Source: Candidatus Staskawiczbacteria bacterium RIFOXYB1_FULL_37_44
GTDB lineage: Bacteria; Patescibacteriota; Minisyncoccia; Minisyncoccales; Staskawiczbacteraceae
Length of the DNA stretch: 38,502 nucleotides
Assembly: GCA_001822065.1 (NCBI GenBank)
Contig: MHPJ01000012.1
Span: 1,125-39,626, forward strand
Direction of reading: 5' to 3'
Positions 1,918 to 35,493 of the stretch are shown here, piece by piece. Within the stretch, counting starts at the first letter, position 1; each line of letters begins with the position of its first letter. The notes below the pieces were generated by a model. It was not told where the DNA came from. It did no database searches and saw only the letters and a list, made by a program, of their open reading frames with translations. The position numbers and the translations under genes are program-made.

Positions 1918-1949
1918 TTACTATATTTTATCTTAACATATGTTAAGAT
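1918..1949 (-). promoter_or_regulatory. Promoter with palindromic operator, copy 1 (HTH-ftsEX)
   Basis: The perfect palindrome ATCTTAACATATGTTAAGAT lies at 1930-1949. On the minus strand it contains TTAACA (1946-1941), followed by 17 nt and TAGTAA (1923-1918). The -10 ends five bases before the ATG of the HTH gene, so the transcript should be leaderless. The palindrome begins a few bases past the stop codon of the 574-residue gene. Confidence 0.65.
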
Positions 1950-1951
1950 GA

Positions 1952-3676
1952 CTAAGCAACTTCTTGTTGATAGCACTGCTCGCAATAAACTATTTCGGGA
2001 CGATCTGGAGCATATGACGTTTCAAATTCATTAGAACAGCCTTCTTTCATGCATTTTCTGTGCCAAAGCGTCATTGGGTTTCTTTGTTTTAGCCGCTCTT
2101 TATGCCGGCAAGCAAAGCACAATCGCGGCAAGGGTATTTGTAAATTTTTATAGAATTTCAATTCATCTGGCGTAATGCGAAACGCGGTAGCGCAACCGTC
2201 TTGGCATTTTCCTTCGTGCATACATCCAATGGTTTCTTGTGTAATGTTGTCGGGAGCGTCAGAAATTTTAACAGGCGAATCAGCGGCGCGTTTGGTTATT
2301 TTATAATTTCTGGACTGAGTCTTTCCCCAGGAATGTCCTTGCACATCTGCCTCCTCTTTTGTGAGCGGCATATAGTCCTGGGCGACGGTGTCATTGTATG
2401 GTATTGGAGAAATTTCTATTGGAAGAAATTCTCCGTATTTATACACCCGGCCCTTTGCGTCAACATAAGGCATTGAATTCATATGCTCAATAATTTTAGG
2501 AACAAGAGTTTCATATTCTTCTTTGGAATATTGTTTGTTAAAAATACAATACGACTTATTACGTAATGACACACAGCCAAAAAGGTTATTTGAACTATGG
2601 CAATTTATACTGTATTGCACGTCATGCGAATACCACACAACAAAATTAAACATGCATCGCGCGCTTTGTACGCCGATAGAAACTGATTCATATAGCAACT
2701 CAGAATTTCCGCCGGTGCCGGGGCCCGTGTCGTATGAATCTTTAAACTCTCCAGAGCTCCAGTGAGAATATTTCACATTCTCGGCTCCGCTCAAAAAGTC
2801 AAAACAATGATATGCATTCTTTACATTATGAATGTGGTCACCCACTGCGTGGGTGGATTTAAAAATCTGGGCATAGCGATGAGGAACGCTAAGGCTGAGC
2901 TCCGCCACCCGTTGCTTCATATCCTGAACAACATTCCAATCACCCATATCAAATTCTTTTATTTTTTTAAAATATTCTTCTTTGGTATACGGCTTATTAA
3001 AAATATTGTAATTTTTATTTCTCAATCCCGCACAACTAAAACAGTTACTGCAACCGCGGCAGTCGTAAAGAAAATATGAGTCATTACAATCTTTACAAGT
3101 GTGGCTGTAAAACAACCGATACGAATCCTCGCAATATACATTTTCGTAGCAAAATTGGTTGCGGCCGCATATGTAAAGGTCGAGCGAATTTTTGTTGCCG
3201 TCGACGCGGTTCATATACATACAATCTTCGTTGGTCCAGGCTGCACTTACTAAATAACAATTTTTTTGCTCCACTGTCATATTGCAATAACTTGAATTTG
3301 TTGACTTGCTGTCAAAGAGCGCAAGCGTGGGAGTTTGAAGCATAAGCTCCTGCAGTTGCCTAAAAAATGGTCTTGAAAAATCATAGTCTTGGCCATATGC
3401 CAACGGGTCCCACCTATCAGAGAAAAATTCCTCATGCTCATATACCTTCATAGGCGAATCCGACCGGAATATAGAAATGATTTCTTTTTCAGTAGCGGCG
3501 CTCTTTTTGCGGTGCAGGACAAGTTCATTACGAAACGCCATTCTTCTTTGCAACCGGCAATCCGGGCAAAATGTCGGAGGTGGTACTTTTATTTTTTCAT
3601 AAAACGCAAAATCGTCGGGCTCAATTGTGAAGTCCTTTTTGCAGTTCTGACATATTTTGGTTTCTGAATCACTCAT
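1952..3676 (-). CDS. Cysteine-rich multi-zinc-ribbon protein (574 aa)
   Basis: Function unknown. The protein has about 30 cysteines. An N-terminal zinc ribbon (CQNC near residue 9, then 'KVPPPTFCPDCR') is followed by a basic 'RR.A.RNE' segment. A long cysteine-dotted middle comes next, with the motif 'RNK.Y.IFNK.Y.KEEY' twice. The C-terminal zinc ribbons are 'LPRLCFACRHKERLKQRN' and 'CMKEGCSNEF ... YCEQCYQQ'. It is clearly paralogous to the 586-residue protein at 11197-12957. Proteins of this look recur in Patescibacteria and, as I recall, sometimes carry an implausible 'CaiB/BaiF' label; nothing here resembles a CoA transferase. The middle repeats could form a beta-helix-like solenoid (inference). 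No signal peptide or membrane segment is seen. Its promoter carries the shared palindrome. Confidence 0.85.
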   Translation of the reverse strand: MSDSETKICQNCKKDFTIEPDDFAFYEKIKVPPPTFCPDCRLQRRMAFRNELVLHRKKSAATEKEIISIFRSDSPMKVYEHEEFFSDRWDPLAYGQDYDFSRPFFRQLQELMLQTPTLALFDSKSTNSSYCNMTVEQKNCYLVSAAWTNEDCMYMNRVDGNKNSLDLYICGRNQFCYENVYCEDSYRLFYSHTCKDCNDSYFLYDCRGCSNCFSCAGLRNKNYNIFNKPYTKEEYFKKIKEFDMGDWNVVQDMKQRVAELSLSVPHRYAQIFKSTHAVGDHIHNVKNAYHCFDFLSGAENVKYSHWSSGEFKDSYDTGPGTGGNSELLYESVSIGVQSARCMFNFVVWYSHDVQYSINCHSSNNLFGCVSLRNKSYCIFNKQYSKEEYETLVPKIIEHMNSMPYVDAKGRVYKYGEFLPIEISPIPYNDTVAQDYMPLTKEEADVQGHSWGKTQSRNYKITKRAADSPVKISDAPDNITQETIGCMHEGKCQDGCATAFRITPDELKFYKNLQIPLPRLCFACRHKERLKQRNPMTLWHRKCMKEGCSNEFETSYAPDRPEIVYCEQCYQQEVA

Positions 3677-3684
3677 GCTATTTT

Positions 3685-3716
3685 TATTTATTTTTCATCT
3701 TAACATATGTTAAGAT
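3685..3716 (-). promoter_or_regulatory. Promoter with palindromic operator, copy 2 (574-aa gene)
   Basis: The same 20-bp palindrome lies at 3697-3716 and extends here to a perfect 24 bp (TCA...TGA). On the minus strand TTAACA (3713-3708) is followed by 17 nt and TAAATA (3690-3685), eight bases before the ATG of the 574-residue gene. The stop codon of the neighbouring 99-residue gene lies inside the palindrome. Confidence 0.68.
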
Positions 3717-4009
3717 GATTTGCTAAAACCATTAAAATAAATTTGGTCTTCGGGAATTACCTTAACAACCTTATATGTTCCTTTTGTATAAATTTGCCCT
3801 CTTTCTTCAAAATGAGTAGCTTCTAAAATTAGGATACTGGCAATTGGCTTGGACAAAATACTATTACCCTTAGTTTTCAAAAGCGGAACTTCGCCATGTA
3901 AATAATAATTTCTCTGGTCTTTTTTCAAAAAATTATAAATCTTTCCTTCTTCCAGCAATTCGGGTATACATTCTTCGATTTTTCTGTTGCCGGATTTAAA
4001 TTCAGACAT
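3710..4009 (-). CDS. Hypothetical protein, 99 aa
   Basis: I do not recognise this protein. It is small and soluble-looking, with no membrane segment or cysteine ribbon. It begins 'MSEFKSGNRKIEECIPELLEEGKIYNFL', has a hydrophobic stretch 'PIASILILEATHF' and ends in a lysine/valine-rich part 'KGTYKVVKVIPEDQIYF', which suggests a compact alpha/beta or OB-like fold (weak inference). The third copy of the palindrome lies 54 bases upstream and the second copy overlaps its stop codon. It therefore appears to belong to the same small regulon as the HTH-ftsEX unit and the 574-residue protein. Confidence 0.65.
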   Translation of the reverse strand: MSEFKSGNRKIEECIPELLEEGKIYNFLKKDQRNYYLHGEVPLLKTKGNSILSKPIASILILEATHFEERGQIYTKGTYKVVKVIPEDQIYFNGFSKSS

Positions 4010-11196: not shown

Positions 11197-12957
11197 TTAA
11201 GCAACTTCTTTTTGGTAGCAGGATTCACAGTAGACAATATTTCCTAATTCTGGATCAAAGCCCGTTTTGAAATTATTACCACAATGTTCATGACCATGCT
11301 CGTGTAAAACTGTGTTTTGATTTTGCCCCGTATCATCTTTATCACCCGCACACATGCATTGGTAACTATACAATTTTATGCCCAACCTGTCTTTTATTCT
11401 TCTTTCATGTCTGCACTCATTGCACATTGTCGGCAAGGGAAGCCGTTCTTTCTTATAAAATGAAAATTCGTCACGCAAAATTCGGTACGCGTTTTGGCAT
11501 TTTTCACATTTAATAATTTCATTTAATATGTTATCGTTTGCGTCATCAATTGATTGAGGTAAGTCTGCTGAGTTTAGCGAAATATTATAATTTCCTTTTT
11601 CTACTTTAACCCATTCATAACCAAAACTCTCCGCTTTTTCTTTTGTCATATCAAAATGCTGAATGGCCAAAGAATTGTTATACCCGAATGGTGAAAATTC
11701 TATTGGAAAAAATTCTCCATATTTATATACGTTTCCCTTTCTATCGACATACGGCACGTCATCCATATGCTTTTTAATTTTAGGAATAAGGGCTTCGTAT
11801 TCTTCTTTTGTATACTGCTTATTTAAAATGCAGTATTGGGCTTTTTTAACGCCCGCGCACCCGAAACAATCTGATGAACTAAATATATTTATACAATACT
11901 CGCTGTCTCTACAAGCCGGCCAACAATTAAAACAAAATTTCAAATTATAAGGACCCTCCCCGCAAACACAAGTTTCATAGGACAATTCGATATTTTCTCC
12001 CCAAACCATACAGTCATAGCAATCTTTATTGCGGGGAACCTGCATAATTTGACAATATTTCAAATTTTCACCTTCCCTTATAAAATAGCTTTCTGTGACA
12101 TTTTTTGAATTCGTCACATAAGATCCGGTTGAATTTAGATTTTGTACGCCTTGATGGTTTTTATTTATCTGTGTTTTCCAGAAATCCCTGGATTTCTGTC
12201 GCACATGGTAAAAACCATCTATAGTAGACAAGCACATCTCGCCAAAAAGTTTTTTATATTCCTCTTTTGTATATTGTTTATTAAAAATACAATACGATGA
12301 TTTTCTCAAATTCACACATCCTAAACAATCGTTGCAACCGAGACAATCACGCGAAAAATACATATTTCGACAATCAACAGACATTATTGTCCCGTAACAT
12401 TGATAACAGTTCTTTAACCAAAAACTGTCGTAACACATTTCAGAATGATTTATATGCGAATTATCAAAACAATCTTTACAGAAATCTATGCCATTGCCAT
12501 ATGAGCAATTTTCGGTGTAATTTGAGCTAAATAATAAATAACAATTTTTCAATCCCGTAGCATTTCCCGAATACGGGCTATTTACCATTAATTTCACATT
12601 TAAGTTATAAATCGGAACTTTTTTTTCAAGCTCCAAAATTTGCTCTAAAAATGGACGAGACCAGTCGATATCCCTGCCATAATCCGTGGGATCCCAAGAA
12701 TCTCCCATCCATTCTTCTTCGGTTACCACTTTTCTTTTTGACTCAGGCGGATACAAAGAAAATATGTCTTCTCCTGTAAAAGCATTTTTATTTTTGAAAA
12801 GCTTACGCTCATTTCTAGAGGCTGCTCTTCTTTCAAATCGACAAATTGGACAAAAAGTAGGCGCAGGGACTTTCATTTTTTCGTAAAACGCAAAATCGTC
12901 GGACTCGATAGTGAAGTCCTTTTTACAATTCTGACAATTTTTAGTTTCCGCTTCCAT
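11197..12957 (-). CDS. Cysteine-rich multi-zinc-ribbon protein (586 aa), paralogue of the 574-aa protein
   Basis: Function unknown. It shares the whole architecture of the protein at 1952-3676: an N-terminal ribbon (CQNC...'FCPIC') with the same 'DFTIE.DDFAFYEK' core, a cysteine-rich middle (about 39 cysteines in all), the repeated 'YCI.NKQYTKEEY' motif and C-terminal ribbons ending 'YCESCYQKEVA'. An insertion in the last ribbon contains the His-rich 'HEHGHEHCG', which the paralogue lacks. No membrane segment is visible. A 35-bp palindromic repeat lies 30 bases upstream and also touches the stop codon of the ArsR-type gene. proS follows 18 bases downstream, so the two may be co-transcribed. 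Confidence 0.85.
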   Translation of the reverse strand: MEAETKNCQNCKKDFTIESDDFAFYEKMKVPAPTFCPICRFERRAASRNERKLFKNKNAFTGEDIFSLYPPESKRKVVTEEEWMGDSWDPTDYGRDIDWSRPFLEQILELEKKVPIYNLNVKLMVNSPYSGNATGLKNCYLLFSSNYTENCSYGNGIDFCKDCFDNSHINHSEMCYDSFWLKNCYQCYGTIMSVDCRNMYFSRDCLGCNDCLGCVNLRKSSYCIFNKQYTKEEYKKLFGEMCLSTIDGFYHVRQKSRDFWKTQINKNHQGVQNLNSTGSYVTNSKNVTESYFIREGENLKYCQIMQVPRNKDCYDCMVWGENIELSYETCVCGEGPYNLKFCFNCWPACRDSEYCINIFSSSDCFGCAGVKKAQYCILNKQYTKEEYEALIPKIKKHMDDVPYVDRKGNVYKYGEFFPIEFSPFGYNNSLAIQHFDMTKEKAESFGYEWVKVEKGNYNISLNSADLPQSIDDANDNILNEIIKCEKCQNAYRILRDEFSFYKKERLPLPTMCNECRHERRIKDRLGIKLYSYQCMCAGDKDDTGQNQNTVLHEHGHEHCGNNFKTGFDPELGNIVYCESCYQKEVA

Positions 12958-12986: not shown

Positions 12987-13021
12987 CTATTCCGTTATTC
13001 CGCGGAATATTGGAATAGTTA
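12987..13021. promoter_or_regulatory. 35-bp palindromic repeat, left copy
   Basis: Outer arms CTATTCC/GGAATAG enclose the perfect inner palindrome ATTCCGCGGAAT; the whole is a nearly perfect inverted repeat followed by TTA. It is identical base for base to 14729-14763. It overlaps the stop codon of the ArsR-type gene and lies 30 bases upstream of the 586-residue gene. An operator role is inferred. No T-tract supports a terminator. Confidence 0.75.
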
Positions 13022-14728: not shown

Positions 14729-14763
14729 CTATTCCGTTATTCCGCGGAATATTGGAATAGTTA
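14729..14763. promoter_or_regulatory. 35-bp palindromic repeat, right copy
   Basis: Identical to 12987-13021, in the same orientation. It lies 24 bases upstream of the 309-residue gene and 13 bases beyond the stop codon of rseP, so it could serve as operator for the three-gene run. Confidence 0.75.
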
Positions 14764-25664: not shown

Positions 25665-25679
25665 TGTTCTAAAAAACTA

Positions 25680-25713
25680 TTCGTTTTATTTGACGATCGT
25701 CAAATTTAACGAA
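25680..25713. promoter_or_regulatory. 34-bp interrupted palindrome upstream of the PurM-like promoter
   Basis: The central perfect palindrome ATTTGACGATCGTCAAAT (25688-25705) is flanked by TTCGTT/AACGAA arms, with two unpaired T's on each side between. It lies just upstream of the -35 box. It may be an activator or repressor site; no T-run marks it as a terminator. Confidence 0.55.
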
Positions 25714-25725
25714 CAAAATACAGCT

Positions 25726-34883: not shown

Positions 34884-34915
34884 TACGGCTTTTTGCCTGG
34901 AGGCAAAAAGCCGTA
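34884..34915. promoter_or_regulatory. 32-bp palindrome between paaX-like gene and tpiA (loop GG)
   Basis: Arms TACGGCTTTTTGCCT/AGGCAAAAAGCCGTA pair perfectly around GG. It touches the stop codon of the PaaX/Cas2-like gene and lies about 60 bases upstream of tpiA. No T-run follows on the minus strand, so an operator is likelier than a terminator. Confidence 0.7.
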
Positions 34916-35428
34916 TTAACCTAGTTTAAAATGGTGTATCAATTTATCTTGATCGTCTATTGATTCCAATAATCCAAAACAAATATATTTTTCAATTTTG
35001 AATAATCTGGCAAGCGCTTTTATTTCTTTTTCGCAATTATATGGATACAAAAATAAACTTTCCTGTATTTTATAAAATCCTCCGGCTCTTAGCCTATACG
35101 CCAGCGCTTTTCTCCCTTTAGCGCAAACATCAGGGATATCAAACGATACCATCCTCCATTTGCCGTCCCACCTTTCTTTTCTGTTATCAAATTTTTTGAA
35201 TATCATGTTTAATGCCCTTAATTTTCCTTTTTCCGACAACGAAATCAAAACAGATCCTTCGTAATTTTGTTTTCGTTTTATAGATTCTTCATATTTTAAT
35301 CTTGCTATGGCTATTTTTACATCTCTTTGTTCGTCCTTTTTAAAAAAATTAAAAATATCATCAATTGTAAATGCAGATCCTTCGTTAAATAATCTCAATA
35401 TTATCTTTGTAGTAATTACGCTGCTCAT
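34916..35428 (-). CDS. PaaX-like winged-helix regulator with Cas2-like C-terminal domain
   Basis: The 170-residue protein has an N-terminal winged helix ('TTKIILRLFNEGSAFTIDDIFNFFKKDEQRDVKIAIARLKYEESIKRKQNYEGSVLISLSEKGK') and a C-terminal ferredoxin-like domain ('WDGKWRMVSFDIPDVCAKGRKALAYRLRAGGFYKIQESLFLYPYNCEKEI'), as in PaaX regulators and Cas2. The 'FDIP' strand and 'R..LR..GF...Q.SL...P' pattern are the Cas2/PaaX hallmarks. There is no Cas1 or CRISPR array nearby. The extended -10 motif TGATATAAT ends six bases before the ATG. The gene is bracketed by two 32-bp palindromes with identical arms. Confidence 0.85.
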   Translation of the reverse strand: MSSVITTKIILRLFNEGSAFTIDDIFNFFKKDEQRDVKIAIARLKYEESIKRKQNYEGSVLISLSEKGKLRALNMIFKKFDNRKERWDGKWRMVSFDIPDVCAKGRKALAYRLRAGGFYKIQESLFLYPYNCEKEIKALARLFKIEKYICFGLLESIDDQDKLIHHFKLG

Positions 35429-35434
35429 AATTTT

Positions 35435-35443
35435 ATTATATCA
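35435..35443 (-). promoter_or_regulatory. Extended -10 promoter of the PaaX/Cas2-like gene
   Basis: TGATATAAT on the minus strand, six bases before the start codon, with no good -35 box. The 32-bp palindrome ends 18 bases further upstream, so a protein bound there would cover the -35 region. Confidence 0.65.
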
Positions 35444-35461
35444 CGAATTCGCAAAATTAAA

Positions 35462-35493
35462 TACGGCTTTTTGCCTTCAGGCAAAAAGCCGTA
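35462..35493. promoter_or_regulatory. 32-bp palindrome upstream of paaX-like gene (loop TC)
   Basis: The same arms as at 34884-34915 (TACGGCTTTTTGCCT/AGGCAAAAAGCCGTA) but a different two-base centre. The arms are conserved while the centre varies, as expected for a site read by a dimer. Confidence 0.7.

Follow-up and report, generated by a model that had tools for sequence, protein, structure and literature searches.

What is the relationship between a small gene predicted to code for a DNA-binding protein and the two palindromes that bracket it in a genome of Candidatus Staskawiczbacteria (bacterium RIFOXYB1_FULL_37_44)? The window that we analysed is a stretch of 38,502 nucleotides from this genome, and near its end a unit of about 610 bp combines the gene with two palindromes that have identical arms and different centres. 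A first-pass annotation had read the palindromes as operators, and its interpretation as a whole is partly supported by the results described here. The locus is organised as follows:

34884..34915, no strand assigned: downstream palindromic end with 15-bp arms and centre GG, touching the stop codon (from the sequence and from matched pairs in relatives)
34916..35428, minus strand: gene of the element, coding for a 170-aa winged-helix and Cas2-like (PaaX_M) protein (ORF, Pfam PF20803, AlphaFold, Foldseek)
35435..35443, minus strand: TGATATAAT, extended -10 element in the promoter of the PaaX/Cas2-like gene (consensus match only)
35462..35493, no strand assigned: upstream palindromic end with 15-bp arms and centre TC, over the -35 position of the gene (from the sequence and from the pairs of relatives)

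As had been annotated, the two 32-bp palindromes share exactly the same 15-bp arms, TACGGCTTTTTGCCT/AGGCAAAAAGCCGTA, and the downstream copy is in contact with the stop codon (TAA, 34916-34918, minus strand). With the gene on the minus strand, the copy at 35462-35493 is the upstream end. It had been described as abutting the extended -10 element, which is roughly right: it ends 21 bp before TGATATAAT, and thus sits at the -35 position. The genome-wide search proposed along with that description recovers the exact 15-bp arm twice in forward and twice in reverse orientation in the 836-kb genome, all at this locus. About 714 kb of the genome was read section by section. The sequence also bears out that neither palindrome is followed by a T-run. 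The latter point bears on the simplest reading, namely that these are bidirectional terminators resembling each other by chance. Hairpins containing G+C at gene ends would suit such a role, but the T-run is absent, one copy precedes the promoter, the members of a pair match mutually while varying between loci, and comparable copies occur within uvrC; hence, we regard this reading as barely credible.

The assignment of the product to the PaaX/Cas2-like proteins proved correct. Its match to PaaX_M (Pfam PF20803), which is the Cas2-like domain found in PaaX, scores 58.2 bits against a gathering cut-off of 24, while the protein remains below the cut-offs of the curated PaaX model (TIGR02277 of NCBIfam: 32.6 bits against 264.55) and of the curated Cas2 model (17.8 bits against 24.5). 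The AlphaFold model has a mean pLDDT of 95, and a Foldseek search of the PDB retrieves E. coli PaaX as the best match, followed with weaker scores by Cas2-type and winged-helix proteins. Together, Pfam, AlphaFold and Foldseek place a winged helix and a Cas2-like domain in the same polypeptide, as in the PaaX repressors, which bind phenylacetyl-CoA and regulate paa genes. The latter (TIGR02277, PDB 8a39) likewise display an N-terminal winged helix, a central Cas2-like domain and possible autorepression; however, they are about 280-316 aa long, whereas members of the family described here are about 160-210 aa, leaving no room for the C-terminal domain, and have palindrome pairs on both sides. 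With Cas2 and the Cas2/VapD nucleases the protein shares a ferredoxin-like domain, a conserved Asp in the F-D-I-P strand and weak profile matches, but here the domain is fused to a winged helix and misses the Cas2 cut-off. On reading the ORFs next to the gene in the window we recognised neither cas1 nor a CRISPR array.

Across 69 homologues the motifs W-D-G-K-W-R, F-D-I-P and Q-x-S are conserved and Asp97 is retained in at least 90%; no His or Tyr is invariant, and beyond Asp97 the alignment presents no apparent candidate catalytic set. PF20803 is the only domain matched, and the Y1 transposase domain (PF01797), with its HUH motif and catalytic Tyr, is absent. No Cas2-fold protein is known to act as a transposase. 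We found no homologue in phages or plasmids, and no confirmed one on viral contigs. For scanning genome contigs, the closer subfamily gave a workable profile, whereas the full family has too few conserved stretches.

The association of gene and palindromes holds across the whole gene family, as the link drawn between them in the first-pass annotation would have it. Under fixed thresholds, which were set after the first examples had been seen, a matched palindrome pair surrounds 30 of 34 homologues in this and related genomes, whereas 4 of the 252 remaining genes that code for 140-260 aa in these sequences have one. A set of further patescibacterial loci from GTDB genomes, which played no part in forming the idea and was scored by the same kind of rule, gave a matched pair at 47 of 61 loci as opposed to 12 of 500 random windows. 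Judging from the listed scores of the phylum-wide set, most short PaaX-like proteins have such a pair while the long ones (236-258 aa) never do (0/8). The ends are almost perfectly palindromic and often contain a 6-bp core, for example CGATCG or CTCGAG; the members of a pair match each other and differ from those of other loci, so that each pair is specific to its gene copy. A perfect pair is kept even around a decayed copy with a stop codon (L306), and the downstream end is present whatever the orientation of the neighbour, convergent genes included. Under a strict palindrome filter no clear pair emerged around another six copies, of which three are in G005, two are in G011 and one, decayed, is in G004. 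Gene subfamily and palindrome type do not correspond one to one, since two relatives, G008 and G015, carry the window subfamily with other end sequences.

One of the four control genes with a matched pair, L055:7194-7895, coincides with a Y1 transposase match (G000:C1:27419-27640, G000 being the genome under study) and is a RAYT-like case of the known type, making it a useful positive control for the pair test. More fully, the Y1 gene at L055:7141-7929 is flanked by a pair of its own, GTTGAAGTC..GACTTCAAC, with a third copy of the palindrome also present; it looks like a RAYT/REP case within this very genome. RAYT genes are small and always lie between two palindromic REPs, forming "REPtrons" (PMC2817692, PMC3116915); the RAYT type correlates with the dispersed copies of its palindrome, and the ends change yet stay palindromic (PMC2817692). 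The unit in the window parallels these in having its gene between matching palindromes, in the co-variation of ends and gene, and in the dispersed copies in gene-carrying genomes; it differs in its winged-helix and Cas2-like protein in place of Y1/HUH, in its fewer solo copies and in its near-perfect palindromes. By analogy it resembles a REPtron in the function that we predict for it, but it is not one by membership because the Y1 domain, when tested for, is absent.

The presence of Y1 genes in this genome and in some relatives raises the alternative that a Y1 (RAYT/IS200-type) transposase moves the palindromes, with the PaaX-like gene as a passenger or a host-side binder. The Y1 gene flanked by its own palindromes (L055:7141 and 7889) speaks for such an activity, but that palindrome differs in sequence from the PaaX-type ones, and G007, a 97% complete genome without a Y1 match, is nevertheless rich in both palindrome types, which makes this alternative quite improbable. 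IS200/IS605 elements are tiny single-gene units with hairpins at both ends. The unit described here is similarly a tiny one-gene unit with hairpin ends, but it lacks the Y1_Tnp domain and has full palindromes at its very edges.

The distribution of the gene is that of a multicopy and patchy element. We detected 12 copies in this genome; among relatives its occurrence is patchy, with some copies interrupted by stop codons. Within a genome the copies are mostly 25-40% identical, which gives no sign of a recent burst of whole units. G000 lacks the gene at sites where its relatives have it, several sites are reused, and the same intergenic sites are occupied by different gene subfamilies. In a tree of 35 copies those at the same site do not form one clade: the copy closest to that of the window (63%) sits at a different site, and the copy found at tpiA in G015 is closest to a G007 copy at another locus. 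Where copies from different sites are compared, their DNA is similar from palindrome to palindrome, plus short AT-rich extensions. These comparisons suggest that the unit may transpose. We also considered a pre-existing palindromic target that is duplicated upon insertion; this was not seen at map-tpiA or at other unoccupied sites.

The map-tpiA site also speaks to the original reading, according to which the palindromes are a pair of operators through which the protein regulates its own gene and tpiA, with nothing mobile. While the placement of the upstream palindrome with respect to the promoter fits this proposal, in several relatives tpiA directly follows map, without the element and without such a palindrome. 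This leaves the control of tpiA unsupported, and as all the evidence for a mobile unit likewise counts against the two-operator reading, we consider it very unlikely.

Copies of the palindromes are also found away from the genes. Near-perfect palindromes occur at 55 sites in the genome, while first-order Markov resamplings give 4-8. The pattern TTTTTGSCNNNNGSCAAAAA, the core of the window subfamily, has 4-10 copies in each of six genomes (G000, G002, G004, G005, G007 and G019), all of which encode the matching gene subfamily; among 26 other genomes it occurs only in G003 (1) and G018 (2), and a reversed-pattern control gave 0 matches. A second palindrome type, restricted to G002, G004 and G007, repeats this pattern to a lesser extent. 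Arms found in relatives without any PaaX-like gene had been named at the outset as a sign against a link between protein and palindrome. Such copies do exist locally, as solos, but at the level of genomes those that lack a gene subfamily nearly always lack its palindromes as well. When 28 solos were compared with element ends, 21 best matched those of their own genome, against 6.3 expected under label shuffling, a result to be taken loosely because the rows lack independence and a single site was entered twice; the remaining seven, four of them in G000, best match another genome. Solos are few by the standard of classical REPs: counting the ends as well, each type has 4-10 sites in a genome. 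One solo falls in the window:

25678..25715, no strand assigned: solo palindrome that belongs to a different subfamily (core GACGATCGTC) and is similar to the ends of the PaaX-like element at G000:C1 (L058:6308-6850)

Solos are mainly intergenic, and several adjoin genes of a family of zinc-ribbon proteins, 550-590 aa long, that is present in multiple copies. This CxxC family (CQNCKKDFxIEPDDFAFYEKM), with hardly any Pfam match and often beside solo palindromes, is found in the window at 1952-3676 and 11197-12957, at L019:5449-8882, and in L158, L150, L140 and L152. Nearly identical copies of a further palindrome, TCATCTTAACATATGTTAAGATGA, flank its 574-aa zinc-ribbon-like member in the window (1928-1951 and 3695-3718), and an exact 32-bp palindrome, CTATTCCGTTATTCCGCGGAATATTGGAATAG, at 12987-13018 and 14729-14760 flanks a three-gene group. 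The PaaX-like gene had been counted as the third regulator in the window with its own pair; the count is apt for the three-gene group, which includes an ArsR/MarR-like HTH gene, but the 574-aa protein is not an obvious regulator. The CTATTCCGTTATTCCGCGGAATATTGGAATAG copies are possibly ordinary operators because each also lies upstream of a gene. Elsewhere, solos of two families are found about 55 bp apart (L061:11865/11920, L073:12237/12291 and L145 near 2950-3021), which suggests shared insertion hot spots, and a palindrome family with three copies, TTCTCACATTCTCGAGAATGTGAGAA (L062:5083, L070:8231 and L070:8545), has no recognised partner gene.

Other solos lie within a coding sequence, in frame in the uvrC linker of G007 and G019; the linker of G000 also contains an in-frame palindrome, which resembles the ends of its own element L006. 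No PaaX-type partner could be assigned to the uvrC palindromes of G005, G011 and G004. We also observed unrelated palindrome-like stretches in this linker in several species (L160-L170 and L153). Rickettsia palindromic elements (RPEs) are palindromes inserted in frame in housekeeping genes, and no partner gene is known for them; the uvrC palindromes are comparable in being in frame, but here a partner gene is suggested.

The strongest competing explanation is that the protein is a regulator or a chromosome-organising protein, with the palindromes as regulon-like sites that were spread by recombination or by another element. The winged helix and the similarity to PaaX repressors, the upstream end over the -35 position and the mostly intergenic solos all accord with it, as does the repression by E. 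coli PaaX of its own promoter (PMC9493321). However, it does not sit well with a downstream end that is kept regardless of the orientation of the neighbour, with solos in frame within uvrC, with different subfamilies taking the same intergenic sites, or with the co-variation of ends and solos within species. On balance we hold it to be unlikely, though well worth considering.

It is the recurrence of the arrangement and the scatter of loose palindromes, even inside genes, that lead us to prefer a mobile unit over an ordinary repressor with its operators. Support from sequence for mobility comes from copy-specific ends, multicopy and patchy occurrence, differing sites, homology limits, and solos, including those in genes, that match their own genome. 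Accordingly, the gene and its two palindromes probably constitute one mobile-element-like unit that the protein spreads together with bare ends, in a RAYT/REP-like manner. The best reading is thus of a new REP/RAYT-like mobile unit in Patescibacteria, previously unrecognised, with autoregulation as a plausible by-product; the open-licence literature yielded nothing on PaaX or REP in Patescibacteria/CPR, an absence that is weak evidence.

We envisage that the protein, which we assume to be a dimer, would recognise its own palindromic ends via the winged helix, and that through these ends the whole unit and bare end copies would be carried to new sites, as in RAYT/REP. The protein would in this case be the mobilising factor, with the Cas2-like domain predicted to cut or join DNA by way of a hairpin or duplex. 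With the -35 position lying under the upstream end, the protein would probably also repress itself, a plausible parallel to PaaX; here we agree with the first-pass annotation. A stronger version, which we put forward tentatively and rate at somewhat under an even chance, is that this short protein, with its winged helix and Cas2 fold, acts alone as the enzyme of a novel class of patescibacterial mobile elements, moving both itself and bare palindromic ends.

If the mobile-unit reading is right, a gene family filed under PaaX/Cas2 in Patescibacteria would mostly be the core of a mobile palindrome system, and REP-like repeats would gain a non-HUH partner. Part of the palindrome excess in these reduced genomes would be accounted for, and caution would be due before these genes are labelled Cas2 or phenylacetate repressors. 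It would also offer a testable connection of the Cas2 fold with palindromic repeats that do not belong to CRISPR. Were the protein indeed the sole enzyme, a Cas2-like protein would be acting on non-CRISPR palindromic repeats, which might serve as a model for the origin of Cas2 and of palindromic repeats; such a link to Cas2 origins is speculation.
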